Shown here in pieces: positions 11,167 to 63,896 of a stretch of DNA of 64,000 nucleotides. The stretch covers positions 17,531,971-17,595,970 of the forward strand of contig NC_003070.9 in assembly GCF_000001735.4 (NCBI RefSeq), read 5' to 3'. How positions within the stretch are numbered: position 1 is the stretch's first letter; the number at the start of each line of letters is the position of its first letter. The translations under genes and the position numbers were made by a program. The notes beneath the pieces were generated by a model. That model did no database searches. It had not been told where the DNA came from and saw only the letters and a list, made by a program, of their open reading frames with translations. The DNA comes from Arabidopsis thaliana. Taxonomy: Eukaryota; Streptophyta; Magnoliopsida; Brassicales; Brassicaceae.

Positions 11167-11346
11167 TCAATTATCATCCCATATACTCTTCCATCGTTTT
11201 GATAGAGCCATAGTTCTCACAGCTTCGTCTAAAGGAAGTTTTAATATGATTTTACCCAAAATTTCGTTTGGGAGATCGCTAATGCGATCTTTAGTGTTGT
11301 CTACATCAACTACAACACTTCTTCCTCGTGTATCAGACGATGATTG
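11167..11346 (-). pseudogene. N-terminal F-box fragment, unit A
   Basis: The translated minus strand has the same F-box core as the copies at 14384-14575 and 17529-17720 ([14 protein letters not shown], then [11 protein letters not shown]), but the ATG-bearing first codons seen in the other copies are missing. It ends at the same in-frame stop. The downstream LRR/FBD part of such proteins is absent. Confidence 0.6.
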
Positions 11347-14383: not shown

Positions 14384-14575
14384 TCAATTATCATCCCATA
14401 TACTCTTCCATCGTTTTGATAGAGCCATAGTTCTCACAGTTTCGTCTAAAGGAAGTTTTAATATGATTTTACCCAAAATTTCGTTTGGGAGATCGCTAAT
14501 GCGATCTTTAGTGTTGTCTACATCAACTACAACACTTCTTCCCCGTGTATCAGACGGTGATTGCGATTTCTCCAT
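14384..14575 (-). CDS. 63-residue F-box-only open frame, unit B
   Basis: The frame starts MEKSQSPSDTRGR. The F-box follows from about residue 26 ([14 protein letters not shown]) to [12 protein letters not shown] at residue 63 and a stop. This is the N-terminus of an F-box/LRR or F-box/FBD protein; full members run to roughly 400 residues, so the substrate-binding part is missing. A TATATAAA-like box lies about 110 bases upstream. The copy in unit C differs at about nine residues without losing the frame. It could be a truncated pseudogene or a small protein able only to bind SKP1. Expression is unknown. Confidence 0.5.
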   Translation of the reverse strand: MEKSQSPSDTRGRSVVVDVDNTKDRISDLPNEILGKIILKLPLDETVRTMALSKRWKSIWDDN

Positions 14576-14686
14576 AGGTTGAATTGTTAAAGAAATATAT
14601 TTTTTTATGAAGAAGAAAGAAAAGAAAAGTGAAAATATTTGTTACTTTAGATTATTCATAGGTAGGAGGAACATGAGATGAGAAGG

Positions 14687-14696
14687 TTTATATATA
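14687..14696 (-). promoter_or_regulatory. TATA box upstream of the unit B F-box fragment
   Basis: The minus strand reads CATGTATATATAAACC about 110 bases before the ATG at 14575. Unit C keeps it (17832-17841). Unit A has an altered version (TATATGTAC). Confidence 0.45.
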
Positions 14697-15234
14697 CATG
14701 AGGTAGTTTGTAGTTAATTACGAGGAGATAAGATAAACTAAATATAGACCATACAATATATTTGGGTTGCTGTAAGAAAATAAAAACCAAATCAAGTAAG
14801 AATAATTATGATTCCATTTAAACAATTTGTATTCCTTTCACACTCAAAATTAGGAAAAAAGTTAACACTTTCCAACCTAAAATATATAGGGAAAATTGGC
14901 TATAAAGGATAGATACAACAACTTTTGTCCATATATACCTTTTTTGTAGATTGGTAAGAAAGATTTGAGAAAATAAATACGAGTATGCAGAATAAATTGA
15001 TACACATAATTGTAATGAGGTTTGGTCTTACAAACTATATCCATGGAATTAGAACCCGTCCAAAAACAAAACAAATATAAACAAAAGTAATTACACAATT
15101 GCAAACGCATAAATTAAATCCACCTGCTCTGATCTACCACTAAGCTAAATTACATCTGAATTTATAGTTTAGTCATGTTTTGAATAGGAGCAAGCACCTT
15201 TTTAGCCTATTATGAATAGGAAGAGTTACAAATT

Positions 15235-16175
15235 ATGTCCAACTTGACGTTATTTGTATTTAATTTTCTTGAATTTCCATTCTTGTATCATCTTCTACCA
15301 TCTTCTAGAAGGAGATATCTTGCTCTTAAAGGAATTATCCAACATCACTTGTCGATGGACTTGCTACTGAAGCTACAAGAACATGGCATGCTCGGTTATG
15401 TCATATTGGAGTTGATTCACAGAGAAGATGTTGGAGAAGTACATGAAGAAGATGATGTCATGGAGGATATCACTAAAAAAACCACGAGAATGAGGTTGGT
15501 GAAGTAATCCAAGGAGTACCACAACTGAGAAGGTCGGGTCGACAAGTAAGTCAGTCGCGGTACCTTGAAGACTATGTTATGCAGTCCCAAACAACTTATA
15601 GATTGTTCAAACAAGCTTATGTTAAAAGTAAGAGACGTCAACTTTCGACAAGTAATGAGCCAAGAGGCTAAAGATGTGCTTTAATGGTGGAAAGCATGTG
15701 AAGAGGAGTTGAATCAGTCAACAAGAACGAGATGGTTCTTTGTTGACATATTGATTCAAGTTTCTAATCGGTTTAAAAGCTTTTCAAGAGTTTGTAGAGA
15801 AGCAAGTCGGCTTGTCTATTAAAACCTTTCGTACCCATAAAGGAGGGGAGTTTACTTCAAGAGAGTTCAATCGATGTTGCATAGAGGAGGAATCTCTAGG
15901 TATCTAATGAAGATTCTAAATGATATGTGGGGAGAAGTCGTACGTCATTCAAAGATCATGGGACTACATCTAAAGAAACTAGATGAAGAGTCAAGAAGTA
16001 TAATCACGAGGCTGCATCTCAAGAAGGTAGATGATTGGTCAATCTTGGAATCAAGTCAGATTTTAGAGATGTTTAAACCAAGTTGGGTTTTATTAGAGAA
16101 TATCAAAAGAAGCAAGGTCATGGTATTTTGGTGTTTTGTACTAGTTATTGAAGTACAAGTAATATTTAGCTAAGA
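15235..16175 (+). mobile_element. Ty1/copia fossil fragment, unit C
   Basis: Third copy of the rearranged relic. Its first ~500 bases are nearly identical to unit B, while the later part differs by scattered substitutions. Broken and old. No LTRs. Confidence 0.65.
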
Positions 16176-17528
16176 AAGCTGAAATGAGTATGATACATTG
16201 CAACACACCGAAATTTAATTAGCCCACGATATATCATAAACAAATTTTTTTCCACACAATTTTAACTAAATCAACTTGTTTCGACATGTCAAAATATCAT
16301 AATAAGGTTTTAATCCTTGTTGTAGTACCAAAATAATAATATTTATAATTTATATTAAAATATATCTTCTCGAGGGTCAAATGAATTTATTCCAATTACT
16401 GAAAATAATTTTTGATTCAAATATGGGATGTGATCTAAATATAATAACAATAAAGATTTTTTCCAAAAAAAATCTTTTGAATATACAGTAGATTTTACTG
16501 AAACAATGATAGGCAAAAAATATTATTTAAATATTATGAATTATAATTCAACATTTTCTACTCCAAACTTTTCTTATAATATATCTTACCATCCAAGTTC
16601 ATTTGAAGTTCAAATTGTATTGACGTTATCTAGGCAAAAATATTAATTACTTGTATTTTATTGCTCTTTTTGTCCAAAATACATTTATAAACCTTAATCT
16701 TTAATTTCCCTAACTATGATTTCATATAGTTAATCTCATTGTGGTTTATACATAACTCCATTGGAATATATTGGATTCATGCTCCAACAGTTCTTACCCT
16801 TGAATTGCAATAAATTATCAAAACAATCCTTAAAAAATATTTTTCTGTATGCAATTATTTATTTTAAGTTTAATAAGACAAAATTTCATGTTTTCCTAAA
16901 TTTTCTATTCACTACAATAATATCATGTTCACGGTTCAATTTCAAATGTATGTATCATAAAGTTTGAAAATAAAAGATTTTACGCACCAAAAGCCCGTTA
17001 ACTTTTATCTTAAATTTACATGACAATAAGAAAGTAATTAATAAAGTTATTATCTCTTCTAAGAAATGGCTCGTTTGAACAATAATTTAATAACGATTGA
17101 CAAAAAAGAAGAAGTTCTTACCTCTTTTATTATTTGAGCACAAATATACCAAAGGTATTCATCGATTATCTAGGTTTTGATTTCTCACTTCAACAATTAA
17201 CATACAAGATCCTAGAGTTATTCAGGAGTTCTTAAGTCTTTTTTTTATATATCACCAACCCTAAATCTTCAGTTTATACACAGATCTATTAGTCTATATT
17301 TTTTTCAAAAATTTCTTTAGAGAAGCTATTAAAAAAGAATCTAATAACAACAACAAATAGTTCTTAATTTAGCGATCTGTCATATTTTGAAGGATAAAAA
17401 GAGTACATCTTTTTTAATTAAATTAAATAACTTATTAATAAGTTGCAATAAGACAGTTACTGAGGAATACAAATTCGGATAGAATAATAAAACCTTCAAA
17501 ACAAAAGATTTTGATACAACATTTATCC

Positions 17529-17720
17529 TCAATTATCATCCCATATACTCTTCCATCGTTTTGATAGAGCCATAATTCTCACAGCTTCGTCTAAAGGAAG
17601 TTTTACTATGATTTTACCCAAAATTCTGTTTGGGAGATCGCTAATGCGATCTTTAGTGTTGTCAACATCAACTACAACACTTCTTTTCCGTGTATCACAC
17701 GATGATTGCGATTTCTCCAT
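17529..17720 (-). CDS. 63-residue F-box-only open frame, unit C
   Basis: This is the counterpart of 14384-14575, starting MEKSQSSCDTRKR and containing [14 protein letters not shown] and [12 protein letters not shown]. It has the same length, the same stop and a retained upstream TATA box. The change of the conserved Glu in LPNEIL to Arg falls in the first F-box helix and may weaken SKP1 contact (inference). Pseudogene or small F-box protein. Confidence 0.5.
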   Translation of the reverse strand: MEKSQSSCDTRKRSVVVDVDNTKDRISDLPNRILGKIIVKLPLDEAVRIMALSKRWKSIWDDN

Positions 17721-18014
17721 GGGTTGAATTGTTAAAGGAATATATTTTTTTGTGAAGAAGAAAGAAAAGAAAAGTGAAAATATTTGTTACTTTAGATTAT
17801 TCATAGGTAGGAGGAACATGAGATGAGAACGTTTATATATACATGAGGTAGTTTGTAGTTAATTACGAGGAGATAAGATAGATTAAATATAGACATAAAA
17901 TATATTTGACTTGTTGTAAGAAAATAAAAACTAAATCAAGTAAAATTAACTATTATTTCATCCAAACAAATTGAATTTTTATTCCTTTCACACTCAAAAT
18001 TTGGAAAAAAATAT

Positions 18015-18092
18015 ATAGGGAAAATTGGATATGTAGGATATCTACAACAACTTTTGTCCATATATACCTTTTTAGTAGATTGGTAAGATAGG
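18015..18092 (+). repeat. GGGAAAATTGG-type end repeat (possible MULE terminus relic)
   Basis: GGGAAAATTGG followed by ATATCTACAACAACTTTTG and TCCATATATACC closes unit C. Equivalent stretches lie at 11641-11722 and 14887-14968. The GGGAAAA start resembles Mutator-like terminal inverted repeats in general. No transposase or matching target duplication was found. Confidence 0.35.
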
Positions 18093-18325
18093 TTGTTATA
18101 AAATTTTAAACCCAAATCTACCCTCATTCTCTCTCAAATGACTAAACCTACCATATATAATGTTTCTACATATTCGTCGTCGTTTGACTCCCCCGTTCTT
18201 GCATCTCTTCTTCCTACTTTCACATATTAATTCAGTCCTCCAAGCTTCAACATATATAAAGAAGAATTCATATTTTAGACCGGTTTATTTTTTTTAAGTT
18301 TCAAAACAAGATTGAGAGAAGAAAC

Positions 18326-24493: not shown

Positions 24494-24803
24494 AAAAAAA
24501 TTCTTTATAATATTTTTTTGCTTAAATTCATATTTGTTCTTTGTTTGACTATAGTTTTCATATTTTACTGTATCAAAATTTTTGGTGTTATTTTCTAAAC
24601 ATTATTATTATGTTTTACTTGTAACTGATTTTAGAAAGATATTTTCTACAAAGAAAGAAATCTTATAGAAATTTTTTAAAAATTTACCAAATTAGGAAAA
24701 TCTCTTTATATATTTATTATTAATTTATCGATAAATTAATACCTCTCTAAATTAATAAAATTTTGCAGTCCCAACATTATTAATTTATAGAGGTTTTATT
24801 TAG
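24259..24803. mobile_element. Emigrant-type (pogo-like) MITE
   Basis: The left end TA-CAGTATAAATTCTATAAATT and the right end ...ATTAATTTATAGAGGTTTT mirror each other, with several further ATAAATTAATA words inside each arm. The ~545-bp length and TA flank fit the Emigrant/Lemi1 family as I recall it. There is no transposase. The right tip is degraded. A (TA)n microsatellite sits in the middle (about 24462-24490). Confidence 0.6.
24462..24490. repeat. (TA)n microsatellite
   Basis: About a dozen uninterrupted TA units inside the MITE. Confidence 0.9.
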
Positions 24804-31960: not shown

Positions 31961-33172
31961 TTACAAAGACATGAGAGTTTCAATGTGATTGGGGAAAAAG
32001 TGGAGTCTACGTATAGGTTTGTCTTCAAGTCCATTGCGTAGTCGAAAACCTTTATCTGCAACTCCTTTGTATATGACTCTTCTAAACGTCTCTCTTATTG
32101 CATCAAAATATATAACATGAAAACGTTCGAGCACAGTGTTTGGTACGTAAATCAGTTCACCATCATTAGTGATACCTGTTAGATTGAAATAGTTCTCCAA
32201 ACCCGGCTCATAATGAGAAATAGGTAAATAGGTATGACACGACCATTCGCGCTGCTCTACATTCTCCAAAACCCACATTGAACGACTATTCTTCTCATGA
32301 TTGAAACCAAGACAAGCTAACCTTCCTTTATAAGACATCATCATCACAAGCCCAAAATTCTCATCCCATGGTAATTCTATCACATCGAACCGTTCAGATC
32401 TTACATCGAAACTCAATATCACCCGACCAGAATTAGTATCAGCTCGATAATATATAACACCGTTGATGCATCTGGATTGTCTATAACAAACTCCACCATG
32501 GAATGTAAAAGGGCTATTTTTGTGGTTGGTTTTAACAGTTCTCCATTCTTGATCTGATCCCAATGTTAACACCCGACACTCATAAAAAGCATTACCATAC
32601 GGCATGCACACTACTTTGTGTTTACCATCAACTGGATCGTACCCTAAAGAGACTTTTATATTCTTCCACCTCTCATCCAGCTTGCGTAAAGGTTTGAACT
32701 TTCTCATAGTAGGGTTCCAAATTATAGGGGTTGCTGCTTTTCGAAAGCAGATCAAGCCGTGGACCGACTCGGTTAAAGTGGTGACGCAACAACGTTTTGG
32801 ATAGGTTGTATGGTAACTATCAATAATCTCAGAAGAAGAATAAGAATAAGACTCGTTCGGATTCTGATTGTGTTGAGGAATCGTGAAAACAAAGAACTTG
32901 TCACCTTCTTTGAAAAAGAACATGAGATTCGGCCGAGTTTCAAAGGAGTTGGTGAAATATGGAGCGGTGGTGATTGATGACCAAAGCTTTGAAACACAAC
33001 GAAACCTCACGACAGACTTCGCAGGCAGCCTTGAGAATATCTCCGAGGTTAGATCGAGAGGTAAGGATGATGATGAAGATTTTCCTCTGCTTCTTTTTCT
33101 CTGGATATTTTCGGTCTTCTCTTCTCTTTGCTCCATCTTGGAGAAAACCCTAAGTCGGTACTTCCTTTCCAC
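31961..33172 (-). CDS. F-box protein with FBA (type 3) domain
   Basis: Single exon, intact. The start could be the first Met (403 residues) or the Met at 33136 (MEQREEKTENIQRKRS, 391 residues). I favour the second because the related gene at 42936-44122 begins [10 protein letters not shown] at the equivalent place. The F-box ([20 protein letters not shown], then [11 protein letters not shown]) is followed by an F-box-associated domain with VHGLICFRKAATPIIWNP, LGYDPVDGKHKVVCM and VILSFDVRSERFDVI. Such proteins are presumed substrate adaptors of SCF ubiquitin ligases via SKP1/ASK. Substrates are unknown. It belongs to a fast-duplicating family with relatives at 42936-44122, 57326-59280 and 59940-60600. 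Confidence 0.9.
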   Translation of the reverse strand: MERKYRLRVFSKMEQREEKTENIQRKRSRGKSSSSSLPLDLTSEIFSRLPAKSVVRFRCVSKLWSSITTAPYFTNSFETRPNLMFFFKEGDKFFVFTIPQHNQNPNESYSYSSSEIIDSYHTTYPKRCCVTTLTESVHGLICFRKAATPIIWNPTMRKFKPLRKLDERWKNIKVSLGYDPVDGKHKVVCMPYGNAFYECRVLTLGSDQEWRTVKTNHKNSPFTFHGGVCYRQSRCINGVIYYRADTNSGRVILSFDVRSERFDVIELPWDENFGLVMMMSYKGRLACLGFNHEKNSRSMWVLENVEQREWSCHTYLPISHYEPGLENYFNLTGITNDGELIYVPNTVLERFHVIYFDAIRETFRRVIYKGVADKGFRLRNGLEDKPIRRLHFFPNHIETLMSL

Positions 33173-33239
33173 GATTTATGCTTATATGTCTCAACTTTTT
33201 CCTTTTCCACTAAATTGGAAAAGGAAAAAATGCTTATAG

Positions 33240-42760: not shown

Positions 42761-44120
42761 TACTACTAAATGATTGATGTTGAATTTGTGAAATGCTGTA
42801 GGGAATTGGCAAGGGAGGAAGATGACACGTGATAGAATCAAAGTAAGGGATGAGAACTTATAAGAAAAAAAAATCATAATTAAACTTGCAAAAATGATCA
42901 TTCTAAAGGAAGAACAAAAAAGAAAAAAATTAAAATTATTGCAAAGACATTTGACTCTCAACGTGATCCAAGAAAGCACAGAACGCAAATATAGGTCCAT
43001 ATGGATCTCCATTATTGACCCTAGCTTGGTCGTCTGCAATTTCTTTAAGTTCGAATCTTCTAAAGGTTTTTTTCACCGGATCAAAAAATAAAATATAATC
43101 CATCTTTCGAAACGTGGAAGATACGAAAATAAATTCACCATCATGAGTGCAACCTTTTAGTTGGAAAAAGGTTCTTAATCTTTCATCAAAGTGACCAAAA
43201 GGTGCAAGAATATCTTTACTCGACCACTTGTCTTTTTTTGCGTCCTCCAAAATGCACAATGCTATGTAATCATCCTTCGTGGTACGTTTTTCAACACAAG
43301 CTATCCTCCCCTCATAAGTTATGAGAATTTCCCTATAAATATCCGCATGTAATTTTATCATGTCGAATTTTTCAGATCTGACATCAAAACACATTAAAAC
43401 CCAAGCATGTGTATGATAAACTTGAGCTATATAATATACAACCCCCTTGATGCATCGACCAGAACTCTGATAGTCAGAACAATGCTTATGGTACGTTTTT
43501 ACCGTTATCCATGAGAATTCTTGAGCTGGTCCTAATGTTAACACTTGACATACATCAGAACTTCTTCTAAAAGGCAAGCACATTACTTTGTGTTTACCTT
43601 CAACTGGATCGTATCCTAGAAAAACTATTATATTATTCCAGCTTAATCTGGGTATGGGTAAAGTTATCAACTGTCTCTTGCTAGGGTTCCAAACTATCGG
43701 CATTTTTGATGTCTTAAAGCAGATCAAGCCCTGGACAGATTCCGTAGAGGAATAAATACTACATCCTTCTGGTAATTCCATATGATAACGATAAAGAGCT
43801 GAGAAGAAGAGTAAGACCTTTTAGAATTCTGAAGTGAATGAAGATGTTGCGGAATTGAGGACACAAACAACTTGTCATTTTCTATGAAGCAAACTAAAAG
43901 ACTCGGCCGTGGGGACCGAGTTTCGAACAAGTTGATGAAATATGGATCGGTGGTGATTGATAACCAAAGCTTCGACACACAACGAAACCTCGCAATAGAT
44001 TTCTCAGGTAGCCTTAAGAGTATCTCCGAGGTTAGATCCAGAGGAAGGGACGAAGCTGATTTTGATTGTGTTCTTTTACTTTTCGAGACTACTTTTCTCT
44101 TCTTCTGTTTTTGTTGCTCC
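42760..44120. repeat. segment duplicated (partly) at 59690-60600 and 61130-61260
   Basis: The 3' flank word AGGGAATTGGCAAGGGAGGA occurs at 42799 and 59741. The coding part [11 protein letters not shown] matches the relic at 59998-60366. A shorter echo (ATAATCAAAGTAAGGAATGA) lies at 61143. Confidence 0.8.
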
Positions 44121-44122
44121 AT
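42936..44122 (-). CDS. F-box/FBA protein gene with an apparent frame break
   Basis: The N-terminal frame (from 44122) reads [20 protein letters not shown], then an F-box ([31 protein letters not shown]). The FBA part is in another frame from about 43787 down to 42936 ([50 protein letters not shown]). The switch falls within CAGCTCTTTATCGTTATCAT, and adding or removing a base there would restore continuity with paralogues. So this is a recent pseudogene, a sequence error, or a gene with a very small intron. Apart from this break, roughly 390 residues are open. I recall an annotated F-box locus here (At1g47765). Confidence 0.75.
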
Positions 44123-47100
44123 CTTTTGTAGTCAAAACCCTAATTTGTTCAGGCTGTGTTGCTTTCAACCTTTTCTCAATATATACATATATATATATAT
44201 ATATACGTACATCCTATGCATTAGGTTTTATTTTCTACTTTTATTATTTATTTGAAGATCTTATATGATAAATAAGGGTTTGTTCAAAAAAAAAAAAAAA
44301 ATGATAAATAAGGGTTCTCCTTCAAACTTATACTTTGAGAAGTTGACATGTAGCACTTTTCCTTTTGACATTTGTCATTTCTTTTATACTTAAATCCAAC
44401 ATTTATTTTTATCTGATTTGATTGTATCATTATATATTAAAAAATTCAAAAGTTTTAAATCAAAAAGAAATATACAATGATTTGTTTTCAATATATTTAA
44501 TATCATTATATTGAATATCTATGAGAGACACATTCTTTGTTATATTTATAATAAAACAAACTTAATATTAAGTAAATTTATAAATAATTACTTTAAAACA
44601 TATCTTATATTCTAATAGTTTTAGCAAACTATTTTGCAATGTCTTTTTAGTAATTTTGTTTTTAATGATTTGTCATTTATTGATATTCAAATACAGAGAA
44701 TTTAAATTATGATTTCACAAAAACAATTATATGTATAAGATATCAAAGAAGCAATTTCCTTTGGCATCATTATATTTTAATTTGAATTGACTTTGTAATA
44801 AATACAAAATATAATGTGAAGAAGAAAAAAAAAAACAAAAATAATAAATATTTATAACATAAAAAGATATAAAAACAGTAAAAACTAATGAGAATGAAAA
44901 ATATTAATTTTAATTTTTAATCAACTAACTGAACACTATACATCCATTTGCTTCTAACTAAGTCGTTCGTCCGCACTATACGTTGTTACAAGATCCATTT
45001 GCCATTCCCCATTTTGCCAAAACCTACAATTAAAACTCAATAATTTATAGCCTTGTAGTCACGTAAACCCTCATAAATGGCTAAATAATAGAGCACTTTC
45101 AGAAATTTATTTTTAAGATCAAATTTCTTTGATAAGATACAGAGAAAATTGTCCTTTCAAGCTGCATGATCTCCGGTAAAATATGAGATATGATACTATT
45201 TATCACCGGATTGCATAAAACATTTTGTGATTTGTCTGGATAACTATTTAATTAACGTGTTAACTAATTCATTGCGATAAAATTTTATATATTATGTGTT
45301 AAATGCATATTTATCGTGTTAAACCAGTTATCATATCATATAAATTAATGTGAAATATCAATTTAAAATTTTGAATTATCATTTACTTTATTTATCAAAC
45401 AATTGGGTAAAAATATATATAAGTTAGATGATTATCTACTGGATTACTATGTTAACAACCAGGTTAAATCATAATGTATCGCGGTAACTTTATAAATATG
45501 AGATAAATTAGTATTTATCGTGTTACCTCAATTATTATATCATAAATAAATATAACGAGTTACATATAATATAATATTCGTGTAGATAATTATTTAATTA
45601 ACATGTTAACTACTACAATATCGTAATAGATTATAAATTATGTGTTAACTATTCATTTATCATAATTTAAAACAATGGTAAATAAAATTGTAACGGACTA
45701 ATATTTCATTTAGCAAAGTATCTCACCATTTTTCTAAATGACGTTTGATTACGAGAAAATTTTGATTGAATCGATTTCAACACTTTGAAAATTCGATTGA
45801 TGACATCAATTGCGATGTTTTGTACTAGAAAATTGTAGGTGGAGCCTTTGATGCTTCAGATCTAATAAATCACTCTCGCTTAACTCCAAATCAAACTGCG
45901 GTCTCGTCGTCATCATCGTCTTCCCTAACTCTCGACGAAGTGATAGCCGTCTGACAGGAAATCAGATGACAAACGGTTAGGACTGAGTGTGTTGGTTATC
46001 TCCGACGATCCACACTGCCGCTCGTTGGTTATGGAAATAAGCTACGGAAGCGGCCGGAGCTCCAGTCATCTTCATAGTCTCTATGTCTCGTAAACCAGCG
46101 CCGTCACAAATATATCACACAACTCTCTGATTTGTTTTTCCGGCCAACTTCTGATTTTAATATTTTTGTTTCGATTTTATATTTATATTGCTATTATTAT
46201 TATCATCGTTTTGTGGCCAACTTCTGATTTTAATATTTTTGTTTCGATTTTATATTTATATTGCTATTATTATTGTCATGGTTTTGTGTCGTCGGAAAAA
46301 CAGAAGAAAGAAGGAAGAAGATAAAGAAAGTAAAAGGGTAAAAGAGTCTAAAAGATGGTGATGTTGCATTTGTACAGTGACCAACAGTGACGTTACAGGT
46401 TTGGTTTTATTTTTATTGATTGAAGAGAATAATTGAGAAGTAATTAAGAGGTGTAGACATGTGCCGAAAGTACATGATGTCTAATGTCATTGTATGCAAA
46501 GTTGTGAAAAAAATCTTGTTATATTATATAAAATATATACATGGACATATCAGACCTTAATCATATCTCATGGATTTTTTAATCTCAAAAACTTGAAAGG
46601 AAGTAAATCTTCAAAAAATATTATGTCAATTGATTTTTGTTATGGAAATAGAAAAAATAGTCACCAAGGTTTGAGGAGCTAGAAATGGCCGAAACACTTA
46701 TCGACGTATCGTAATACTTTTTGAGTAACGTGTTTTACCCTCCATTCACCGAAATAACTTTTATGCATGCGGTCCAATGGTTCAAACAAAATTAAAAACA
46801 GTTATTCCACTAGGGTTACAGAAACATGTAACAAAACTCTCACTAATGCAAAACAGAACAAGTGTGGTTTAGTAGTTCTAAAGAAGCAGCACGAACATTG
46901 TAAATGTCGTTAAATGTAAAGACAAGTGGTGTAGAATAATAGTAGTTTAGTGCTGGGGATGATGACTATGTGACTTTATTTTGTGTTAGAGAAGAGACAC
47001 TTGCGGATTTACTTCAGCACGACAAAGCAAATCCTTATGAGATTGACATATACATTACGATTAAGGTTGAGGCCAAAATGATGTTATGGAGACCAAATTT

Positions 47101-48130: not shown

Positions 48131-50365
48131 TGGTTGGTGGTTTACACAACGTTTAAACTACTCTAGCATGTATGTGATTCTAACTCAAAAGCGGGAAACA
48201 AATTTTGAAAACTCAGGGTCATAACCGTAAATTAACATGCTGATTGTTTCAAAAGAACGGGATAAATAGCTCTGGCCTCACTACTCTATTTCGCAACGTT
48301 AACTCTTCCCCTTCCACAAGTAACGGTTAGCGAATGTTGAAATTTCAAAATTCATTTTTTCAAATCCTCTTTCAGAAAATCGCGTTGGGGTTTACATAAT
48401 CGCATGGAGAAGCGATTTTTCATTTTCTATCTTCTTCTGATTCTTAACTCCGATCAATTGAATTGCGTCTCTGATTCGTTGGGTCAATTCAAATCGGGAT
48501 CAAAGGGTTTTGATTTTGGGTCGGTGATGATCTGACGATTGATGCAAGGATTATTACTTGTCTATTGATTTGAGTCCTGATCGTGTGATAGTCCTACGAA
48601 ATCGAAGAAGGTACGAAATGTTTCGATCTCTCTCTCTTCTTGGTTAATTTGGGAATCTAGGGTTTGGATTTGGAATTTGCTTTCGTTGATTTCTGTTGGA
48701 ATTTAGAGGTTTGATAGTTCTGGGATCTTTCTATTAGGGTAATGTTTAACTTGTTCGATAGGTTTTAAATTTGGTGATCGGATAACAGTTGAACAGAGTC
48801 TACATCAAAATTTCTCTCTTACTTGTTGAATTGATGAGTCTAGATGGTCAAAAAAACCCAACGATTTAGAGAATTTCCCTCACGTCCATGATTTTGATTG
48901 TACCGTTTTGGGATTTTAAGGAAGAAATCATATTCGCATAATCTGGACTAATGGATCTTTTCTTTGGTTGTTGCGTCATTATGAGTCCATCACTGTCTTT
49001 ATCTGTGAATTTGTGAAGATTTATTTGAAAAAGGAAAGAAATTGTTGATTGTTATATTCATGCCAGAACAATCTGTGAATTTGTGTTTCTTATTTGCATG
49101 TTTATGTCCCCATTTCCGAGATCTAATTAGTCTTGTGGTCATATGGTTCAGCAATCAAGTGGCAATGCATATCTCAATTTGGAGACGGGAACAAATGTAA
49201 GTTTTGAAACTCTGTTTTAAAGTATAATTTGTTGCCTAGATGATGCATTAGAGTCTCTTTCTATTATCTTAATGTGTTCTCATGAGTGAGATTGTTTTTC
49301 TAACTTTGATAGTTATATTAGTAAGCAGTTAGATTTTGGCTCTGTAAGGCCTGGCATTTATTTTTGTAGATAAACTACCGGATAAAATAATGGTAGTTTT
49401 CAGAGTTTTTGTAGTTTTCTAATGGTCTTGTACTGCTAATGTGTATATAGTGTACTGCTAACATAATGGTTCTTTACTAGGATAGGCGATTCTTAAGTGG
49501 AAAAGAACCAAATTTAAGAAAGCTATTCAATCTCTCCGTAAAAAGAAGGGTCAGGTAGATAAACACACTTTGATACAATGTTTTTCTACTAATTTCTAAC
49601 GTGTTCAAGTGATATCAACTAAAAAAGCATATCATATAGATCTCGATTTCCAAGGTACAGTACTGCCATTAGCAACAAGAAGCCATTTTAATAAGTCTAC
49701 AGGACAAAAAAATGTAAGGCTACACTTGATTTTATTGCAAGAAAATCCATTGTTATATATTTGTATTTTCTTTTACTTAAGTTCTTGCTCTTAAACTTTT
49801 GTTTACATCTTCTATGATCTTGTCATGTTTGTTTTTAGCATGTTTTGAAATACTGTTAAATCAAATTTGCTGCCAAGATGATGGTTGGATTCTCTTTTCG
49901 ACATCTTAATGCGTTTCAAGCGTTTTGCAGTTTATATTCCTCTAGAGTGAGATTCTTTTTCTCTCTTGAAGAGTTATGTTTTCAGTTGGGTTCTTCATTA
50001 TAAAGTATGATCCGTAAAGATTTGAAGTAAAAAAGAGTAGCATGCAGTCATATTTTGGCTCTGTTTTATTTGATTTTGGCATTGATTCGTGGTTTTATTT
50101 TATTGTTTGTGTTGTACTTTCAGGTGAAATTTTGGTTTATTAGCCAAGAGGCAAATGAGGGGTCGTGTTTCCTGCCTCTTGCTAATAATTTTGAGGTCAA
50201 GAGAACAAAATTTCGAAAGTGAATATGTAACCAAGTGCATATGAGAGGTTAGATATCGCTTCATTTATTCTCATATCTATTGTGTCATGCATAAGTTCTC
50301 AGGATCATCTCAACAGGGTGTTTAAATTTGATTAGCCAAGTTGTCTTGGCTTTGTTTGGGTTACT

Positions 50366-50600
50366 CACACTATCTGAAAACACACAATTTCACAGACACA
50401 AAAAATTACTCCATCACAATGCACTCAAAATCAAAACACACCCAAACACAAAACAAACTCAAACATACACACACAAAACTCAAACAAGCACATCTCACGT
50501 AACAAAAATCTAAACACACTCAAACACAACATAACAAAAGAAACAAAATACAGCACACCACAAAAGTAGATACCAAAAAGGGACAAAACAACAAAACTTC
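50366..50600 (+). repeat. CA-rich array 1
   Basis: Purely A/C-biased text (ACACACCCAAACACAAAACA and variants, ACTCAAACA) follows the lead-in TTGGCTTTGTTTGGGTTACT. Almost no G on the plus strand. Non-coding. Confidence 0.8.
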
Positions 50601-52943
50601 ACGATCAATATCTTTTTGTACTTGTAAGAAGTTTGAGATTCTGTTGCCAATTCATTTTCAGGTGAAGTATCGTCCTCTTCTCATTTCTTTGTCCTTTACA
50701 ACTATCAATTATTTTGTCACATTGAATCTAATTACTTTTTATGCTGCTCTCAAAGTGAAATTTAAGCCAGTACAAGCGAAAACAATATCATGCATACAAA
50801 AGTAAAGAGGTAATCAATACATTTACTTACATATGTTTAATACTGTCATTTCTTGTGAAGGGATACTCTGTGATGATTCTAAATCGAAGGAAAAAACACT
50901 AGAGTTTTAAGGTGAAGTTTCTCGCTTTCTTCTCATCTACTTTTGAGTTTTGATTTTGAATATGTAACCAAGTTCATACAAGTTCACATAGGACAAAACC
51001 TGTTGTAAAAGCTGGTTTTTGTATATCATATGTTCAAGATTTAACCAAGTTTTAACCTGTTATTAATATGTTCAATATTTCAGCTGTGGACATTGTGTCC
51101 TTGTCAAGATAAACAGAAACAGTAGGAGCCAAGCAGTGGGATCCCCACTTGGATTAGTGAGTAAGATTTCCAGCAGTTTCTTTATTAGCACTGTTTTATA
51201 GTCTTATTTAATAGTCGTATGTATTTAGTAACTGCTATAAGAATGGTTTTGTCTCAAGATGGAGGAGGACTCTTGAGGTGAAAAATAACTTGGGAAAGTG
51301 ATTCAGTCGCCTCGGTAAATGGAGGGTCAGGTAGACAAACTATCTTTGTCTCTTTTCAAAATTTTTGTAGTTTTTCTATGGTCTTGTGTATGAAGTAAAC
51401 TGCTAATACAATGGTTTTGTACCAACGAACAAAACTTAAGAAAGCTATTCAGCCTCCGTGAAAGAAGAAGGGTCAGGTAGATAAATGTTCTTTCTGAAAA
51501 TGTTTGATGTGTTTAAGTGATTATAACTTGTAGGAACTAATAAAACATATCATATTTCTGTTTTAGATCTCGATTTTCAAGTACAATACAAACGAAGTCA
51601 GGGATCAGATTCTAGCTGTTGGAGAGTCTTTCTCACATGGGACAACCAGATAGTTTCTCCGTGCTAAGGTGACTAATTTTCTTTATCCCCTCTTACAAAA
51701 CTTGACACTCTCTTGTTCTATATTATCTTTCTAACTTGAATGGTTGTGTTTTTTGGTCAGGTTCTTCGATCCGTCAAAGATTGAATAACAAAAAAACAAA
51801 GAACTTAGTCAGGCTCTGTAAGATTCTTACCATAATTTTTTAGCGATGATTTTGTAATTTTTTTTTATTGTTTGTATGCCGTGTTAGCGTTCTGTTTGCT
51901 TTGCTAACAAAATGCTTTGAATACTAGATAGTGGAAATTTATTCTACAAAGAACAAATTTCTTGCCAAGAGCAAATGAGAGGTCATGTATCTATCAGCTG
52001 CACATAGCAACATTTTCAGAGTCGATTTTCTAGCCAAGGGCATATGAGTGGTCAGGTAAAATAATTAGTTTCCTCTCTTCTCTTGTGTATTCTCTCATAC
52101 ATTCGTCCCTACAGGTTATTTGCATTTGATGAGATACCTTGGCTTGTTTACTCAAACTAATGTTTTTTATGGTATCGTTTTGGCTCTGTCTTGGAATTTA
52201 AGGAAGCCATCATATTCGTATAATCTGGACTAATGGGTTTGGTTATTAGTCTATCACTATCTTTATATGTGTTTCTCTAGAGATTGATTTGGAAAAACTG
52301 GTGAATTGTTATATTCATACAAGAAGATTCTATGGCATCACATACATGGTTTATCTCGATATCCCGTGTTTCAATAATTGCATGTTTATGTTTCGAGCTC
52401 TTATCAATCTTGTGGTCATATGATTCAGCAATCACGTGGCAATTCATATCTCAATTAATTTGGAGACAGGAACATTGATGTAAGTTTTAAAACACTCTTT
52501 AAATTATATGTGTTCCTAAGATGATGCAGTGTCCTTAATGTGTTCTTAAAGTGAGATTGTTTTTCTAACTTTGATAGTTATGTTTTTCAGTTGTATTCTT
52601 CGTTAACTCATTATCCGTCAAGATTAAAAGTAGAAAATATCAGCAACCAGTCAGATTTTGGATCTGTAAGACTCTTACCATGTTTTTTTTTCTTTCTTGG
52701 CAATGATTTTGTGGTTTCATTTTATTGTCCAATTTGTATGATGTACTTTCAGGTGAAATTGTGGTTCAATAGCCAAGAGAAAATGAGGGGTTTTGTTAAC
52801 TGCTTCATGGAGATATCTTTGAGGTCCAAAGAACAAAAATTTCGAAGGTAAAACATGTGGGAGGTCAGATATCTTTCTCTTTACTCTCATGTCAATTGTG
52901 TCATGCATAGCTATCTTGGCTTTATTTTGGTTACTCACAATAT

Positions 52944-53190
52944 CTGGAAACACACACTTTCAAAAACACGGAAAACACTCAAACTCAAAACACAAAACAC
53001 ACCCAAAGACAACAAAACTCAAACATAAACACACAAAACTCAAACTCTACAAAAAAAAAATCACATCACACGCAACAAAACTGTAAACGTACTCAAACGA
53101 AACAAATCTCATAATCAACATAACATAAGAAATAAAATACAGCACAACACAAAACTAGAGACATGAAAGAACAAAAAAAAACAATCAATA
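52944..53190 (+). repeat. CA-rich array 2
   Basis: Same composition and the same lead-in as array 1 (TTGGCTTTATTTTGGTTACT at 52916). Diverged but aligned in order. Confidence 0.8.
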
Positions 53191-54687
53191 TCTTTTTTTC
53201 TTTATAGTTAAAAACTTTGTGATTCTGTTGCTAAGTCAATTTCAGGGGAAGTTTCTTTCTCTTTTTTTTTAGTCTTTTACAACTATTAATCATTTTTTGG
53301 TCACATTGAATCTAAGTACTTGTTATGCTACTCTAAAAGTGAATTCCAAGCCACACAAGCTCAAACATTGTCATACAAAAATAAATATATTTACTTAGAT
53401 ATGTTTCATCAAGTGATTTCATGTCAAGGGATACTCATTGATACTTCAAAATCCAAGAGATTCACAAGTTTCAAGGTGAAGTTTCTTTATTTCGTCTCAT
53501 TTACTTTTTCTTCATACAATGTTCTTATTAATACTTATTTCACAAAGAATGTTTATCATACGTAATAAACATGTTTTGTGGATATTGTTTCCTTGTCAAG
53601 AGTAACAGAAACAACAAGAGCAAAGCAGCCGAATTCCAGCTTGGATCATACTTAATAAATTCCAGTAAGTTTCTTGATTAGCATTATTTCTGTGGTTTAT
53701 TTGTAGTCTTATATTCTTATTAACTGCTATTAGAAGGGTTTTGTATCAAGATGGAGAACTCTTAAGCTGATTATAACTAAACTTAGGAAAGTGTTTCAAT
53801 TGCCTCGGAAAAACAAAGGATCAGGTAGATAAACTATCTTCATCCCTTTTTAGAGTTTTTGTAAACAAATCATGGTCTTGTGTATATACTGCTAACATAA
53901 TGGTTTTCTACAAAGATAGACGATTCTTAAGCGGAAAAGAACCAAATTTAAGAAAGCCATCAAGTCTCCTCGAAAGAAGAAGGGCCAGGTATATATATAA
54001 ATTACACACACTGATACAGTGTTTTTTGGAAATGTCTGACGTGTTTGAGTGGTTTTTAACTTGCACGAACTAATAAGGCATATCACATTTCTCTACTAGA
54101 TCTTGATTTCCATGGTACAATACTAACGAAATCAGGTATCAGATTCTTCTTATTGGAAATTCTCGTGCAGATGAGACAACATATATATTCTTTAGTGCTA
54201 AGTGATTAAATTTTTTCATCACCTCTTACAACAGTTGACACCTCTTGATATTTTCTAAGTTGAAGGGTTATGTTTTCTATTCGGGTTTTACGTTATACAG
54301 CATGTTCGGTGAAGATTAAAAGAACAAGAGATGCAAACCTGTCAGCCTCTGTAAGAATCATACCATATTTTATCTTGGCATTGATTTTGTAGTTTTTTAA
54401 ATATATTGTTTGTATGTTGTGTTAGGATCCTGTTTTGCTCTGCACATAATTTTTGCTAACAAAATGATTTGAATTCTAGAGAGTGGATCCTTATTCTGCA
54501 AAGAACAAAGGTCCCAAGAGCAATTGAGAGACGATTTTGCAGCAAGAGCATATGAGAGGTCAAGTAAAGTAAAGTTTCCTCTATTCTCATGTGTATATGC
54601 TCAATTCTCATGTATTCTTCCCTACAGGTTATTTTCATTTGATGAGCCTAGGTGTCTTGGCTTGTTTTGGTTCCTCAAACTATCTAG

Positions 54688-54880
54688 AACCACACAACTT
54701 CACGAATACAAATACATGCAATCACCTAAACTCAAAACACACCGAAAGACAACAAAATTCAAACAGAAACACGTGAAACTGAAACACGATACAAAAAAAA
54801 AACACGTAAGGCAGATAAACTCAAAACACCCTCGAACACAACACAACATAACACAATAGTAAAATTCAACACAATACTAC
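54688..54880 (+). repeat. CA-rich array 3
   Basis: Third copy with lead-in CTTGGCTTGTTTTGGTTCCT at 54656. Confidence 0.8.
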
Positions 54881-56557
54881 TATGCCATTATGTTGCCAAG
54901 TCAATATCAGGTGAACTCTCCTTCCCTTTCTATTTTAGTATCTTACAACTATTGTTGGTCATATTGAAGTTCATTATGTTTTCTTAACAAGTTGGTAAAT
55001 TTTTATGTTATTTGAAAGAGGAATTCAAGCCAATACGAGGGAAAACTGTGCTTTGCATACAAAAACAAAGAGGTAATCATTAATCAATGTAGATATGTTT
55101 TGCTTTGTCAATTTTTACGTTCTGTTCATGTGAATGGAAATTCGGTGATGATTCAAAATCCAAGAAAAGAAACGAGAACCTTACTTTTGCTTTAAACAAA
55201 ATATAAATTCATACTTCGCAAAGGAGAAATTAACACAATTATAACTAGTTTCCATCATACTTTGTAAACCTTTTCAATATCACTATGAAGATGAACATTT
55301 TTTTTAGTTTTCAGCTATGGACAAGCAGTCAAATATATAGGCTTGGATCAGGTTAACTAGTTAAGTAAGATTTCCAGTAAGTACCTTGGTCTTTTGTCTT
55401 TACTCATAGTTTACTGGTAACATAATGAGTTAGATCACGAAATATGATTCTGTATTTGGTCAAATTAGGATTCTTAAGCTGAAAAAACTAGATTCAAGGA
55501 AGCAATTCAGTTGCCTCGAAAAATGAAGGGTCAGGTAAATATACTCTCTTGTTCTCTGTTAGATGTTTACTGGTATTATTCACAATCTATAATATGTATA
55601 ATTTATTGTGTATTTACTTTATTCCATATTTCTCGTGGTATATTATTTTCTTCAGTACTAGTGCATTACCATCAAAGAAATGACATGAGTTTGTTTCTTG
55701 ATGCAGAACGTTTGTGGTGTTTATGAAGCTCTCCGTTTGGATGAAAACCAAGTAAACAACCGATGCACTGATTTTTATATAATGTTTGGGAAAGATTTGA
55801 ACTTATTTTAAGACAGAAATTAGAACTTATTTTGATCTTTATTTTTTTAGGTAAAATACTAAAGATGTTAGAGATAAGATGTTAGCTGTTAGAGAAGCTG
55901 AAGCTTTTTGAACACAAGACGACCACTTGATATTCCCTCGTCACTTCCTTTTAAGGTAATTCAATCTCTTTGTCTTCTCTTACACCACTTGGCATTATTT
56001 TGCAGTGTGTATAGTCTTTCTTTAGTACATTTATGAGGAATCATATGATGGTTCATAATACTGCATTAGAAAACTAAAAGGAAAAAATGTGAGCCAACAG
56101 TCAATCTCGCATTAGAGTAGACTCTGGAGAATTCGTCGTAACTTTCTTTCTTCACATAAATTTTGTAGTTTTATCTATTGTTCAATGTCTTCAGTTAAAC
56201 AATTAGTGTCCTAATTACTCAGCTTATAGTTTACTGCTAACAGCATTGTTTTGTTTTCAAGAAAGAGGATTTTTATGCAGAGAAACATAACTTCAAGTAG
56301 AGATTTATCTGCCAATGAGAAAATGAAAGGTCAGGTAAACATGTAAACTCTTTAAATCTTTTTTTCTCGTCTTTCTTGCTTCATGCATATGTTTTGAGCA
56401 ACAACAGAAACAAAACTTCAGGAGAAAATTCAGTCACCAAGAACAAATGATGGACCAGGTAAATAAACAAACTCTTTTTCTCTTCTTCTCGTGTCTTCTA
56501 CCTTATGCATATGTCTCTGAGCTACATACGGTAAATTAAATATAACTCGTTTGTGTT

Positions 56558-56745
56558 GCTCACATTCGAGCACAAATCAACGTAAAGCACAAAAACTCAT
56601 ACCACGTTTAATAAAAATAAAAATTCATAACCAAATCACAACACAAGAAACGAGGAAAACGAAAACATCACACTAAACGCAACAACCTCAAATACAACAT
56701 AACAAACGAGCAGGAAAAAAACATACACAACAAACTAAATAAATC
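56558..56745 (+). repeat. CA-rich array 4
   Basis: Fourth, most diverged copy with more G, lead-in CGTTTGTGTTGCTCACA. It ends just before the right inverted repeat. Confidence 0.65.
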
Positions 56746-56807
56746 ACAACGTCGTGTGAGTTTGTATAACTAATCCCATACATGTAAAACGTTGTGTAAA
56801 CCACCAA

Positions 56808-57325
56808 TATACATTCTTTGAAAACTGTTATCCTTTTCTATTATGTTAAATTATATATTTACACACAAATCGCCTTAAATCACATACACGACGACTAGTC
56901 CCTAGCGGCTAGCGCTTTCTTTCTTGAACACTGATTATTATAACACGATCATATGTTCTTCATTTGTCATAGTGGGAACGCTTAACCAAAAGCCTACACA
57001 AGACAATCAGTTATGCAAAATAAATGATAATTCTTCTTAGATTCGTTTTTGCAGAAGCTAAATTTAAACGGATAATCCAAATTATATTCAAATCATCCAA
57101 GGAGAAAGCTCGGAACTACTAAGTTCGAAGAAAGTGGAGAAATGGGTATGGGTCATGTTCCCATATTCTTGGAACAGAGGAAAGTAATGATTAGTGTTGA
57201 CTTTCCTATCGCCTACAAAAACTTGGGCTTTTCTAATTTGTAGGGCCAAGAAAGACAACCTAATTTTCTACTTACGTGATATAGAAGTTTACAAGTGATC
57301 TCTAGGGCTTCAGAAAACAGAGGCG
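56808..57325. other. spacer before the F-box pseudogene
   Basis: Moderately AT-rich. No gene or repeat recognised. Confidence 0.4.
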
Positions 57326-59280
57326 ATGAAGAGAGGACACAAACAGACCTCACTATCGTCGACACTACGACTTCTTCACTGTGAAGCCAATTACCTCTCG
57401 ATGGTACGGTTGAAATACTAAAAAGACTGCCGGTGAAATCTCTTTCGAAGGTCCTATGCATTTCGAAGCTATGGTCATCAATTATTAGTAGACATAGAGA
57501 CATCATAGAATCGATTGTGAGTCGTTCTTTGGCTCAGTCTCCACGTGATGCTTAGCTTATTTCATCTACGGACTACGGCCACACTTCAAACAACTACTTA
57601 CCTTCGAAATAGAATCAATATTATTATATTAATATCCCTGAAGGATTAAGGCATTACATCCGTGGCTTGATTTTTTGTTGGTCAGACTCTCGTCATGGGG
57701 GTGTTATATATAAATCTACCACGAGGCAATCCTTTTACTTACCGAAGAATAAATCCATGCATATGGGCACTTTTTTTCTTTGGTTGGTAAAAGGTTAAAT
57801 TTTTTGACAGAATTACATTGATTACAAGAAACGCAATTAAACAATCTACATAAATTAAATACAACATTACAACTCAAAATGCATTATATCGCTTCGATCG
57901 TACGAGGAGAAACACCGTTTCCGAGCTCGCAAGGCTCAAAAATTTGCGTGCTGCCACAACACGAAGTAATGGAATCCTCATCATAGTTGCCATGAACTAA
58001 TGGATCCGAGATTTGTCCACAAAACCTCGAGAAAGAAGCTTACAGCTTCTCCGAGGACTAACGCAAAAACGCATAGGCAGCCGCGGACTTCTACACTAGC
58101 TCAAAGAGATAATGATGCCACTTAGACCTATTCGACGCCTCTATTCTACACTCGACAACCTTAGCAATACAACTAGAAGCTCATTAACACATAAAAATCC
58201 CAACTCGACTACAACTTAACAACAAAACTCAACCTTAACGCAACCAAAGACTAGCGATTGGGACAAAGACAAATTTAGATGGAGGAGCCATAGCCATGGC
58301 TGAAGAATTTGCCACCTTCTTCAGCCCTCTAAAGGAGGAAAGAAGCACACCACCAAAAACACAAACCACTACGCCTCTAACCGCAATGAACAATCCAAAG
58401 AGCCAAAAAAGACTACGAGGCTTGCCTCTAGAAGAGCGACCCGTCAGATCCAAATACGCAACCATCAGAGCGGGAGAAAATTAAGGAAAGAGGGACCCGA
58501 GAAGAGAAGAATCGCCTTACCGAAGCTCACCAACTTGCCAGAAAGGGACTGTGGTACCTGAAAAAACGGCGATGCACCCGATTCCGCAAGTCTAGAGGAT
58601 GGTCCCGCCGATAGGAGCCGCACTTGCTACAAACTCCGGATATGGGCACTTGCTCTCAAGAATCAATACAAAGTATTGTATGGAGAATTCATGTCAAGTT
58701 TTTTCACATTGCGATCCCACGACGAAGCAGTGGAGGAATATCCTAGGTGTTGGACCTCACTTTCCATTGAAAGGTGCGGTTTACATCCACAGGGCTATCT
58801 ATTACCAAGTAGAGACTATATATGACACTACTTCTCGATATAAACTGATAAGTTTTGATGTTAGATCTGATAAAAACACTGATGGATCACTGTTCGTATC
58901 CTATAAACTACCCAAGGGAAGTTAGGATTGTGTGTTGCGACCAGAGTATGGAAATTTGGGTCATGGAGACACAAGGATGGTCCAAGATTTGTTTTTATGT
59001 GATGGAGGGTTCAATAAAATGGCGCATCTTGGAGGCTACTATGGTGGTGAGATCGTTTTGGTCAAATGGCTTTTTATTTATTTTTTGGGCCCTAGAAGTG
59101 AACTGCACTAAGATAATACGCTTATCTACCCTTTAGCTTCTCCCGTGGAGCACCTTTTCAAAGGTTCATATGCATTGTTTGCAATAGCCGTCTATGACCA
59201 CACGTTGGTCGAGGATTTCGCGAAGCCCGTCAACATGGTCGAATCCGTCAAGGCTTCAACAGATTTTTCAAACCTTGTGA
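57326..59280 (+). pseudogene. F-box/FBA pseudogene split by a LINE-like insertion
   Basis: Pieces of one F-box gene lie in order on the plus strand. An MKRGHKQTSLSSTT start (57326) is out of frame with the F-box (PLDGTVEILKRLPVKSLSK, ISKLWSSII; 57394-57545). FBA parts follow at about 57600-57760 (YYINIPEGLRHYIRGLIF) and, after the insertion, 58652-58925 (CQVFSHCDPTTKQWRN, KGAVYIHRAIYYQ, LISFDVRSDK), with a C-terminal tail near 59140-59290. Several frame changes and stops break it. The minus-strand frame at 57213-57506 is only the antisense of the F-box. Confidence 0.8.
57773..58639 (-). mobile_element. LINE-like retroposon, 5'-truncated or short
   Basis: The insert is flanked by a 12-base duplication, ATATGGGCACTT (57761-57772 and 58640-58651), and begins on the plus strand with TTTTTTTCTTTGGTTGGTAA, the complement of a 3' tail ending in A. 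This is the mark of target-primed reverse transcription. The 867-bp body has a 76-codon frame (58235-58465, minus) with two hydrophobic stretches and no recognisable RT. It could be a LINE 5'-truncated past its RT, or another retroposed sequence. The perfect duplication implies a fairly young insertion. Confidence 0.65.
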
Positions 59281-59939: not shown

Positions 59940-60600
59940 CTCATTGTGATCGAGGAAGGCATGGAGCCTTGGAACTTTGTTACTGAGCCTAGATTTGTCA
60001 TCTGCGATTTCTTTTATTAAGTTTGAATCTTCTAAAGCTGTTTTTCACCGGATCACAAAATAAAATATAATCCATCTTTCGAAACGTGGACGATACGTAA
60101 ATAAACTCCCCATTATGAGTGCAACCTTTTAGTTTGAAACATGTTCTCAAACTTCCATCATAGTGACTAGAAAGTACAAGAACATCTTTACTCGACCACT
60201 TGTGTTTCTCTGCGTCAGCCAAAATCCACAATGTGATACTATGCTTCCGGATACCATCCTTCATGGTACGTTTTTCAACACAAGCTAATCTCCCTTCATA
60301 AGTTAAGAGCTCTATCGTGCTAGCGTTCCAAACTGTCGGCGTTGCTGATTGTTTAAAGCAGATCAAGCCCTCGACAGATTCCGTAGGGGGAGGTTACGAA
60401 GTCCTTGTGGGAATTCCATATGATAACAATAAATAGGCTCGTTGGAATTCTGAATCGAGGACACAAACAACTTGTCATATTCTTGGAAGAAAACCAAAAG
60501 ATTCGGCCGTGGAGACTGGAGACCTAGTTTCCAACAAGTTGATGAAATATGGATCGGTGCTGATTGATAACCAAAGCTTAGACATGCAACGAAACGACTA
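59940..60600 (-). pseudogene. F-box/FBA relic, partial duplicate of the gene at 42936-44122
   Basis: The C-terminal half is open over 59998-60366 ([20 protein letters not shown], later [20 protein letters not shown]). Compared with 42936-44122 it lacks the middle of the FBA domain: after TPTVWNAS it jumps to [12 protein letters not shown]. Upstream to 60600 only pieces of the F-box C-side remain, in other frames. The 3' flank is also shared. Confidence 0.8.
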
Positions 60601-60713
60601 AAATTATATCGTTTTGCTTAGCCAAACTCTATGTCACGCTTCTAACTGAGGATACGACTAAAACTAAATTGTTTTGCTTAGTCACACTCGATGTTACGTT
60701 TTTAACTCAGTTA
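60594..60713. repeat. 60-bp tandem repeat, two diverged copies
   Basis: ACGACTAAAA(T/C)TA...TTTTGCTTAG(C/T)CA starts at 60594 and 60654. It lies at the broken 5' edge of the F-box relic. Confidence 0.8.
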
Positions 60714-61982: not shown

Positions 61983-63896
61983 ATGGCTTCTAGTATGTTT
62001 TTATCTTTGCTGTGATATATTGTTCATGCTTCTTCCATTCTTTTCAAAGTTGTTGGACTATTTTCTCTCATATATTTATTGCGTCACTGATTAATGAATC
62101 TGCGTATGTTGAAATTTTTACAGCTAGTAGAAATGTTATTAAATTTGAAGACGTTCTATCTTTTGGACCCATAGGAACTCATAAGGCCACTATAGTCTGG
62201 CTGCATGATATCGGCGAGACAAGCGCAAAGTAATAATAATAATCTCACATTCTTTATTAATTTTTTTTTGGTATATACTCAAAAGATCAAAAAGATATAT
62301 ACCATAAACATGTTTTGGATAAATTCAATTAAATTATATTATTAAGCTTAAAATTTTTTATTTTTTTGGCATTATCTGTACAACTACTAATTGTTTTTAT
62401 TTTTTTGACCTTTATATGTATATAAATGGTAGGCACCACAAACAATAATAAATAACATCTATTGTATCTTTCTATTGAATTTATCTTTTCTTATGACATA
62501 TTAAACTCATTTCACTAAAAATGTATATACTTTGAATCTTGTTTGTCTTTGTATTCGAAGTTTTTCTCACTGTATTCAAATAAATAATTTAGAGTTTTGT
62601 TTAAACTGGTTTCTATTTACTCTATAGTTTTTAAAACAAAAATACTTTGTTTTCGTAATTTAAATAGCTCCCCGAATTTCATTGGTCCGGCTCTGATACC
62701 TCTATATCAATTATGTCTGCAGTTCAACTCGATTTGCAAGACAGATGGGTCTTAAAAATGTATGGATGGATGAACAAGAACGTTTTGTCACAATTCTTAT
62801 ATCCTAAAAGAAATTTGATTTAAGTTTCTAAGAATAAGTATATATATGATTCTGTGTAGGTTAAGTGGATTTGCCCAACTGCTCCTAGACGCCCCCTTAC
62901 TATCCTAGGTGGAATGGAAACCAATGCATGTAAGATCACTTAACTTAAAATTTTATCAAAAACATCATTTAATGTTGCTAATATTCTATTATTAACAATA
63001 CTATATCTACAATCTTCTTTGGTGAATCAGGGTTCGATATCGCAGAACTTTCTGAAAACATGCAAGATGATGTGGCGTCATTAAATCATGCTGCTTTATC
63101 TATTGCTAACCTTTTATCTGAAGAACCCACAAACGGTAACTTATACTTTTTTACACTCTAAATTAATATACATACTTTAGACCTTATATATATATATATC
63201 AAATTTATAAATCTCTGGTCTGAATAGTGATGATAGGAATAGGAGGTATCGGCTTTGGTGCAGCGCAAGCTCTCTACCTTGCGAGTAAGGGTTGTTATGA
63301 CACTAATCAACGGCTTCAAATAAAGCCACGAGTTGTTATAGGGCTCAATGGTTGGCTTCCTGTCTGGAGGTAGCGTCTTCGAGTACATTTTATTACTAAT
63401 GTTTTTCAATAATGTCACTCACTTATTACTAATTTTTGTAACTGAAGTTACGTATATTTTAAACATGAAAAACCTAAATCAATCTTGTAGAAGCTTACAA
63501 AACAACATAGCATCAAATCCCGGGGGTAGAGATCGTCCTATATCACTACCAATCTTACTTGCACATTGTATGTGTATCATCTATTTAACTTTTCTACAAT
63601 TTAGATAACCATCGCGAGATCATGAAAACTGAAAACAATTTTGGAATCTTATAGGTGTTACAGCTAATTATGTGGTGCCGTACGAATTTACACACAAATG
63701 TGCTCATTCCATTCTCATGGCTGGATTTCAGAGCACGCTAAGAAAATACGAAGGGTCTAAACATGAATTCTTTCTCTTTACTTTGGTTTAATTACCATTT
63801 ATTCGAACAGATGCCTCTAAATATGGTTTTGCCATGTACAGGGATCATAATTGGGACGAGGTAAAGCAATGGCTCAAACGTTACCTTCGGCTCTGA
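61983..63896 (+). CDS. Acyl-protein thioesterase-like protein, catalytic residues lost
   Basis: This is a relative of plant acyl-protein thioesterases (alpha/beta hydrolases that remove palmitate from proteins). Supported exons: 61983-61992, 62124-62229, 62860-62929, 63031-63135, 63228-63369, 63491-63567, 63655-63754 and 63842-63896. Phases agree from 62860 on. The exon linking KATIVWLHDIGETSA to VKWICPTAPRRP is not clear. Other family blocks: NAWFDIAELSENMQDDV, VVIGLNGWLPVW, VVPYEFTHKCAHSILMAG. The nucleophile motif GGFSMGAA of the family reads GGIGFGAA (no Ser), and the DDVVPY aspartate is Asn (NYVVPY). So hydrolysis is unlikely. It is a pseudoenzyme or pseudogene. I recall 'thioesterase-related' loci here (At1g47780/47786). 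Confidence 0.7.
62689..62700 (-). other. initiator-Met tRNA primer-site-like 12-mer in an intron
   Basis: GGCTCTGATACC is the exact complement of the GGTATCAGAGCC primer site seen in the TRIM at 39706. Flanking sequence to about 62800 has TGTC... text that could be an LTR edge. It sits where an exon of the thioesterase-like gene is expected. A single 12-mer is weak evidence of a retroelement relic. Confidence 0.3.

Follow-up and report, generated by a model that had tools for sequence, protein, structure and literature searches.

A decayed, internally repeated gene-like segment between two probably related inverted arms in Arabidopsis thaliana

Helitrons are able to carry gene fragments. Their termini are described by a rule of 5' TC and 3' CTRR with insertion between A and T (PMC7385966). 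Pack-TYPE elements, i.e., Pack-CACTA and Pack-MULE, are non-autonomous transposons with terminal inverted repeats (TIRs), and a published definition relies on TIRs, target-site duplications and the presence of similar elements, with singletons being removed (PMC8903248). The same paper gives the ends of Arabidopsis CACTA elements as CACTACAA (PMC8903248). For Arabidopsis Pack-CACTA, hybrid elements were reported in which host DNA is enclosed by ends taken from elements next to each other (PMC13317346).

Here, a segment of 8674 bases between outer arm edges (48134-56807) within a 64-kb window of A. thaliana DNA is analyzed, where the window is the whole stretch of DNA that was studied (Table 1). 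It resembles the Pack-TYPE TIR transposons in having inverted ends around gene-like DNA without a transposase, and it differs from them in having no target duplication, no known terminus and no second copy in the window. With the hybrid founder of Pack-CACTA elements it shares related inverted ends around host DNA, for which insertion as a unit is unnecessary; however, its ends are not CACTA ends (PMC13317346). In analogy to Arabidopsis Helitrons it is devoid of a target-site duplication. Its ends are TTGG...CCAA, in contrast to the Helitron rule of TC...CTRR inserted into AT (PMC7385966). Decayed tandem-duplicated plant pseudogenes show the same tandem exon-intron units, frame-breaking gaps and absence of a domain, whereas the segment is in addition bracketed by inverted arms. 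The reading that we favour, tentatively and with somewhat less than even confidence, is that a decayed tandem-repeat host locus lies between two oppositely oriented, separately arrived relics of one repeat end.

Table 1. Coordinates of features in and at the borders of the segment (window positions).
Feature	Position	Strand	Remark
Left arm	48134..48187	+	first 21 bases are an exact inverted copy
Right arm, inverted	56757..56807	-	exact copy occupies its outer 21 bases, 56787-56807
Putative E2F-like site	48191..48198	-	GCGGGAAA as read on the + strand
Putative gene-start-like stretch, 5' leader-like	48200..48620	+	read by eye
Exon-like block	49482..49553	+	ends GGTCAG/GTA
Further exon-like blocks	ends near 51329, 51475, 53823, 53987, 55533, 56333, 56457
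Tandem unit 1	49900..52149	+	52160-52584 is also similar to its upstream part, from 48888
Tandem unit 2	52500..54667	+	78.0% identity to unit 1 over 2007 aligned columns
Tandem unit 3	54543..56530	+	more diverged; overlaps the coordinates of unit 2, edge not fixed
CA-rich array 1	50360..50600	+
CA-rich arrays 2-4	~52940-53180, ~54680-54870, ~56560-56745

As claimed in the first-pass annotation, the words at 48134-48154 and 56787-56807 are perfect inverted copies of 21 bases. No third copy of the word was found across the window with up to three mismatches allowed, and zero was also the mean in 100 shuffles. Altogether 15 exact inverted 21-mer pairs are present in the window and the arm pair alone is neither an AT-only run nor a palindrome-like word, the remaining 14 being AT-only runs or lying inside one palindrome-like word at 24718-24741. 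The base composition predicts 0.003 inverted matches of 21 or more bases per 64 kb, and 60 order-1 Markov simulations gave a figure of 0.05. As there are many such windows per genome, some such words are expected in a genome, and the exact 21-base word alone could be due to chance after selection. Inward of the 21-mer the arms continue with a 10-base indel followed by CATGTATG(T/G)GATT and with a 7-base indel followed by C.AACTCA. Across these two indels, 41 of 44 bases of the aligned arms are identical, which bears out the claim that the similarity carries on inward past an indel. The score of the inner side was equalled by 0.05% (40 bases), 1.1% (60 bases) and 11.6% (100 bases) of 20000 random stretches, that of the outer side by 4.7% (40 bases) and 28% (60 bases), and similarity of the arms beyond the outer edge is not convincing. 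The arms share their outer edge, as terminal inverted repeats do, and they are probably related to each other.

Aligned with each other, the left and right arms reach a score of 29.25, compared with 16.5 for the next best site in the window and with a top score of 19.0 for shuffled arms (20 shuffles per arm). Together with the 40-base inner extension this makes it unlikely that the arms are alike by chance and that the segment is merely a decayed tandem-repeat gene or the locus of a non-coding transcript, even if the expected number of such words per genome, the fading of the inner extension with longer flanks and a coarser test on 400-base stretches, in which a score of 24.5, that of the arms, was equalled or exceeded by 40 of 1873 random pairs, would agree with that reading. 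The pair had been described as a longer decayed repeat rather than chance; the inward relatedness stands, and the non-randomness is probable. The inverted pair is real and probably non-random, and the repeat locus that it encloses is old and decayed.

The CA-rich arrays and the repeated exon-like blocks reported inside the segment are both real. Self-comparison pairs 49943-50944 with 52547-53508 and 51085-52149 with 53577-54667, with weaker third copies from 54543 on. Unit 3 is 59-60% identical to unit 1 or 2 in a forced alignment, with local pieces mostly at 70-80%. Assuming 7e-9 substitutions per site per year, the divergence of units 1 and 2 corresponds to 18.6 million years, a figure that gives a rough scale only. 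The best conserved part between these two units is the CA-rich array (186 of 222 bases, 83.8%), perhaps owing to its composition or poor alphabet alone. Array 4 scored 53.5, 64.5 and 50.75 against arrays 1-3, compared with maxima of 45.25, 46.0 and 41.25 for shuffles, which preserve base counts only. The alignments of array 4 extend past the right arm, so the exact end of the last unit is not fixed. A block is found behind each of arrays 1-3 but not behind array 4, where the best match to it within 56501-58500 has E 0.057, and thus the last unit ends in or near its array, adjoining the right arm.

The blocks ending with GGTCAG/GTA recur, some of them just 124-164 bases apart, a spacing that points to small duplications nested within large ones. 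Between units 1 and 2, identity amounts to 76.3% (350/459) in the exon-like blocks and 77.5% (1028/1326) in the other sequence, in a comparison of six blocks that were all taken from unit 1 and had edges set by eye, some of them off by 1-2 bases. Nine of the 11 gaps within exon-like blocks are not multiples of three, and protein-coding constraint on the blocks was not detected in this comparison. The longest stop-to-stop frame of the segment has 128 amino acids, where 200 simulations gave a median of 109 and a 95th centile of 144. For ATG frames, the longest has 67 amino acids, against a simulated median of 87. The segment shows no sign of coding constraint since the duplication.

All 36 stop-free pieces of at least 55 amino acids in the segment and three hand-joined exon peptides were scanned against Pfam. 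None of the 36 pieces reached a family cut-off and no transposase was found; 32 of them and the hand-joined exon peptides were without any match. The other four gave matches below the cut-off, namely JAB (E 0.051), ABC2_membrane_2 (E 0.028), CMV_1a (E 0.22) and Orthoreo_P10 (E 0.16), and with E between 0.028 and 0.22 these were taken as chance and not as real domains. A coding gene or transposase within the segment was rejected, as the frames are of chance length and no Pfam match reached the cut-off. The claim of almost no transposon coding is accordingly true for the 36 pieces compared with Pfam, a scan that short exons would escape. A PDB search with one exon peptide of 50 residues was empty up to E 5. 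A known structural RNA was likewise rejected, as nothing in the window reached the gathering score of an Rfam family and ARAGORN predicted no tRNA.

Near the left arm, the sequence suggests a putative gene-like start. It would consist of the putative site at 48191-48198, which resembles the E2F consensus, and of a donor-like AAG/GTACG at about 48611, recognized by eye. One more TTTCCCGC is present in the whole window, on the opposite strand.

A transposon that had inserted as a unit would be expected to leave a footprint. No target-site duplication of 2-12 bases was found with symmetric edge shifts of 0-7 bases. When the edges were moved independently by up to 12 bases, a single 4-base match was obtained, whereas 1000 random edge pairs averaged 5.6 exact matches of at least 4 bases, with none in 88 of these pairs. 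As arms that are identical at 41 of 44 bases should have retained most of a target duplication, its absence weakens the transposon reading of the segment. The arm ends start with TTGGTGG and do not agree with CACTA (En/Spm) termini. At the arm edges, the TTGG and CCAA ends and the G as left flank base do not correspond to Helitron termini, and the arm ends fit neither TA nor TTA/TAA target duplications. In the VANDAL21 group the anti-silencing target motif YAGTATTAY is found in many copies, whereas it occurs once in the whole window, at 56055. We do not claim the arms as members of any TIR superfamily.

One large Pack-TYPE-like non-autonomous TIR element, which would have captured part of a repeated host gene, inserted as a unit and later lost its target duplication, could explain that the arms are similar inward only with a single outer edge, that the gene-like interior is free of transposase and that the tandem units stop short of the right arm. 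It is, however, an unlikely origin, given the missing 2-12-base duplication next to arms of such high identity and the single 4-base match at independently shifted edges. It had been proposed that the segment could be a non-autonomous transposon with a captured gene; the related arms with their shared outer edge and the non-coding interior, which looks gene-derived and has no transposase, speak for this proposal, whereas the absent target-site duplication and the lack of agreement with any of the terminus rules checked speak against it. Units 1 and 2 differ by 22% and the arms at 3 of 44 bases, so the internal repeats and the arms need not be equally old.

The missing target duplication and the indels between the arms would also be in agreement with a templated inverted copy, in which break repair copied about 50 bases from one edge to the other and a deletion truncated the last unit, with no mobile element involved. 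The presence of two copies of the arm sequence within the window also speaks for it, and filler DNA is reported at plant break junctions. Still, the template would be 8.6 kb distant, and it is left unexplained why the copies share an outer edge and why each of them sits at a border of the repeat locus, so that we regard such a copy as rather improbable.

According to the preferred reading, i.e., a decayed host locus between two separately arrived relics, the interior would be an old multi-exon, gene-like host locus with units of roughly 2-2.5 kb that is non-coding now, and the blocks may be former exons. The arms would be relics of about 50 bases from the end of one candidate repeat family in opposite orientations. 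They would be derived from a transposable element and may have come as separate pieces, either as ends of related elements that were neighbours or as two fragments of one dispersed repeat, and the 8.7 kb would never have inserted as a single unit. The missing target duplication is expected when the two ends stem from different insertions; likewise, a hybrid founder would presumably be without matching target duplications. The chance that arms at the 78% identity of the units reach 41 of 44 is P = 0.007, which fits arms that are younger than the internal duplication, in a comparison resting on 44 bases. It counts against the preferred reading that no second arm copy is present in the window and that the last unit ends near the right arm, which a single capturing element explains too. 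As an insertion footprint is missing, the segment is probably an ordinary genomic fossil of old, decayed and internally repeated gene-like DNA.

If the arms prove to stem from the end of a dispersed repeat, this would add another case of repeat ends bracketing Arabidopsis host DNA, seen at a stage prior to mobilisation or in its absence. If not, the locus cautions against calling a transposon from nothing more than unusual DNA within an exact inverted repeat. Only as an extremely unlikely, speculative reading do we mention a family of large non-autonomous elements that would be undescribed, with TTGGTGGTTTACACAACG ends and no target-site duplication, carrying a non-coding host locus that would be spliced, would have expanded by itself and would possess a promoter of its own.

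Searches with the end sequence of the arms gave no useful match in viral contigs (18 bases) or prokaryote genomes (21 bases). A blastn search of 48134-56130 (7997 of the 8674 bases) against plasmids returned one match of 70%, between a CA-rich array and an E. coli plasmid, which was dismissed as composition.

The serpin piece at 27291-28091 matches residues 5-266 of PDB 3LE2 (Serpin-ZX) over 262 residues with zero mismatches, and PEX11, PPPDE-peptidase and F-box genes are also found in the window. This set presumably corresponds to about AT1G47710-AT1G47780 on A. thaliana chromosome 1. No literature on AT1G47770 or the letters of the end sequence was found in a search with most subscription journals outside its scope. 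AT1G47786 alone among six guessed neighbouring locus names appears there, in one paper, and AT1G47780 has a single entry in a table that lists genes enriched in the embryo sac. A location of AT1G47780 inside the segment was considered and dropped: a stop-free piece resembling by eye the start of a thioesterase, which had no Pfam match and presumably belongs to this gene, lies outside at 61994-62230. F-box pieces flank both sides (43724-44131 and 57385-57552), with an F-box-associated domain at 59998-60393. Related F-box genes or fragments are located on both strands around the segment (31961-33175, 42936-44131, 57385-57552 and 59998-60617). Directly left of the segment, a 73-base unit is present in two tandem copies with 97% matches (46142-46288). 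Farther away, 8501-18104 is an overlapping array of large direct repeats of ~2-2.6 kb that are 89-97% identical, in which the stop-free piece 8709-9119 has no Pfam match, and 1859-3836 contains dense short tandem repeats with periods of 12-57, partly within two overlapping minus-strand frames.
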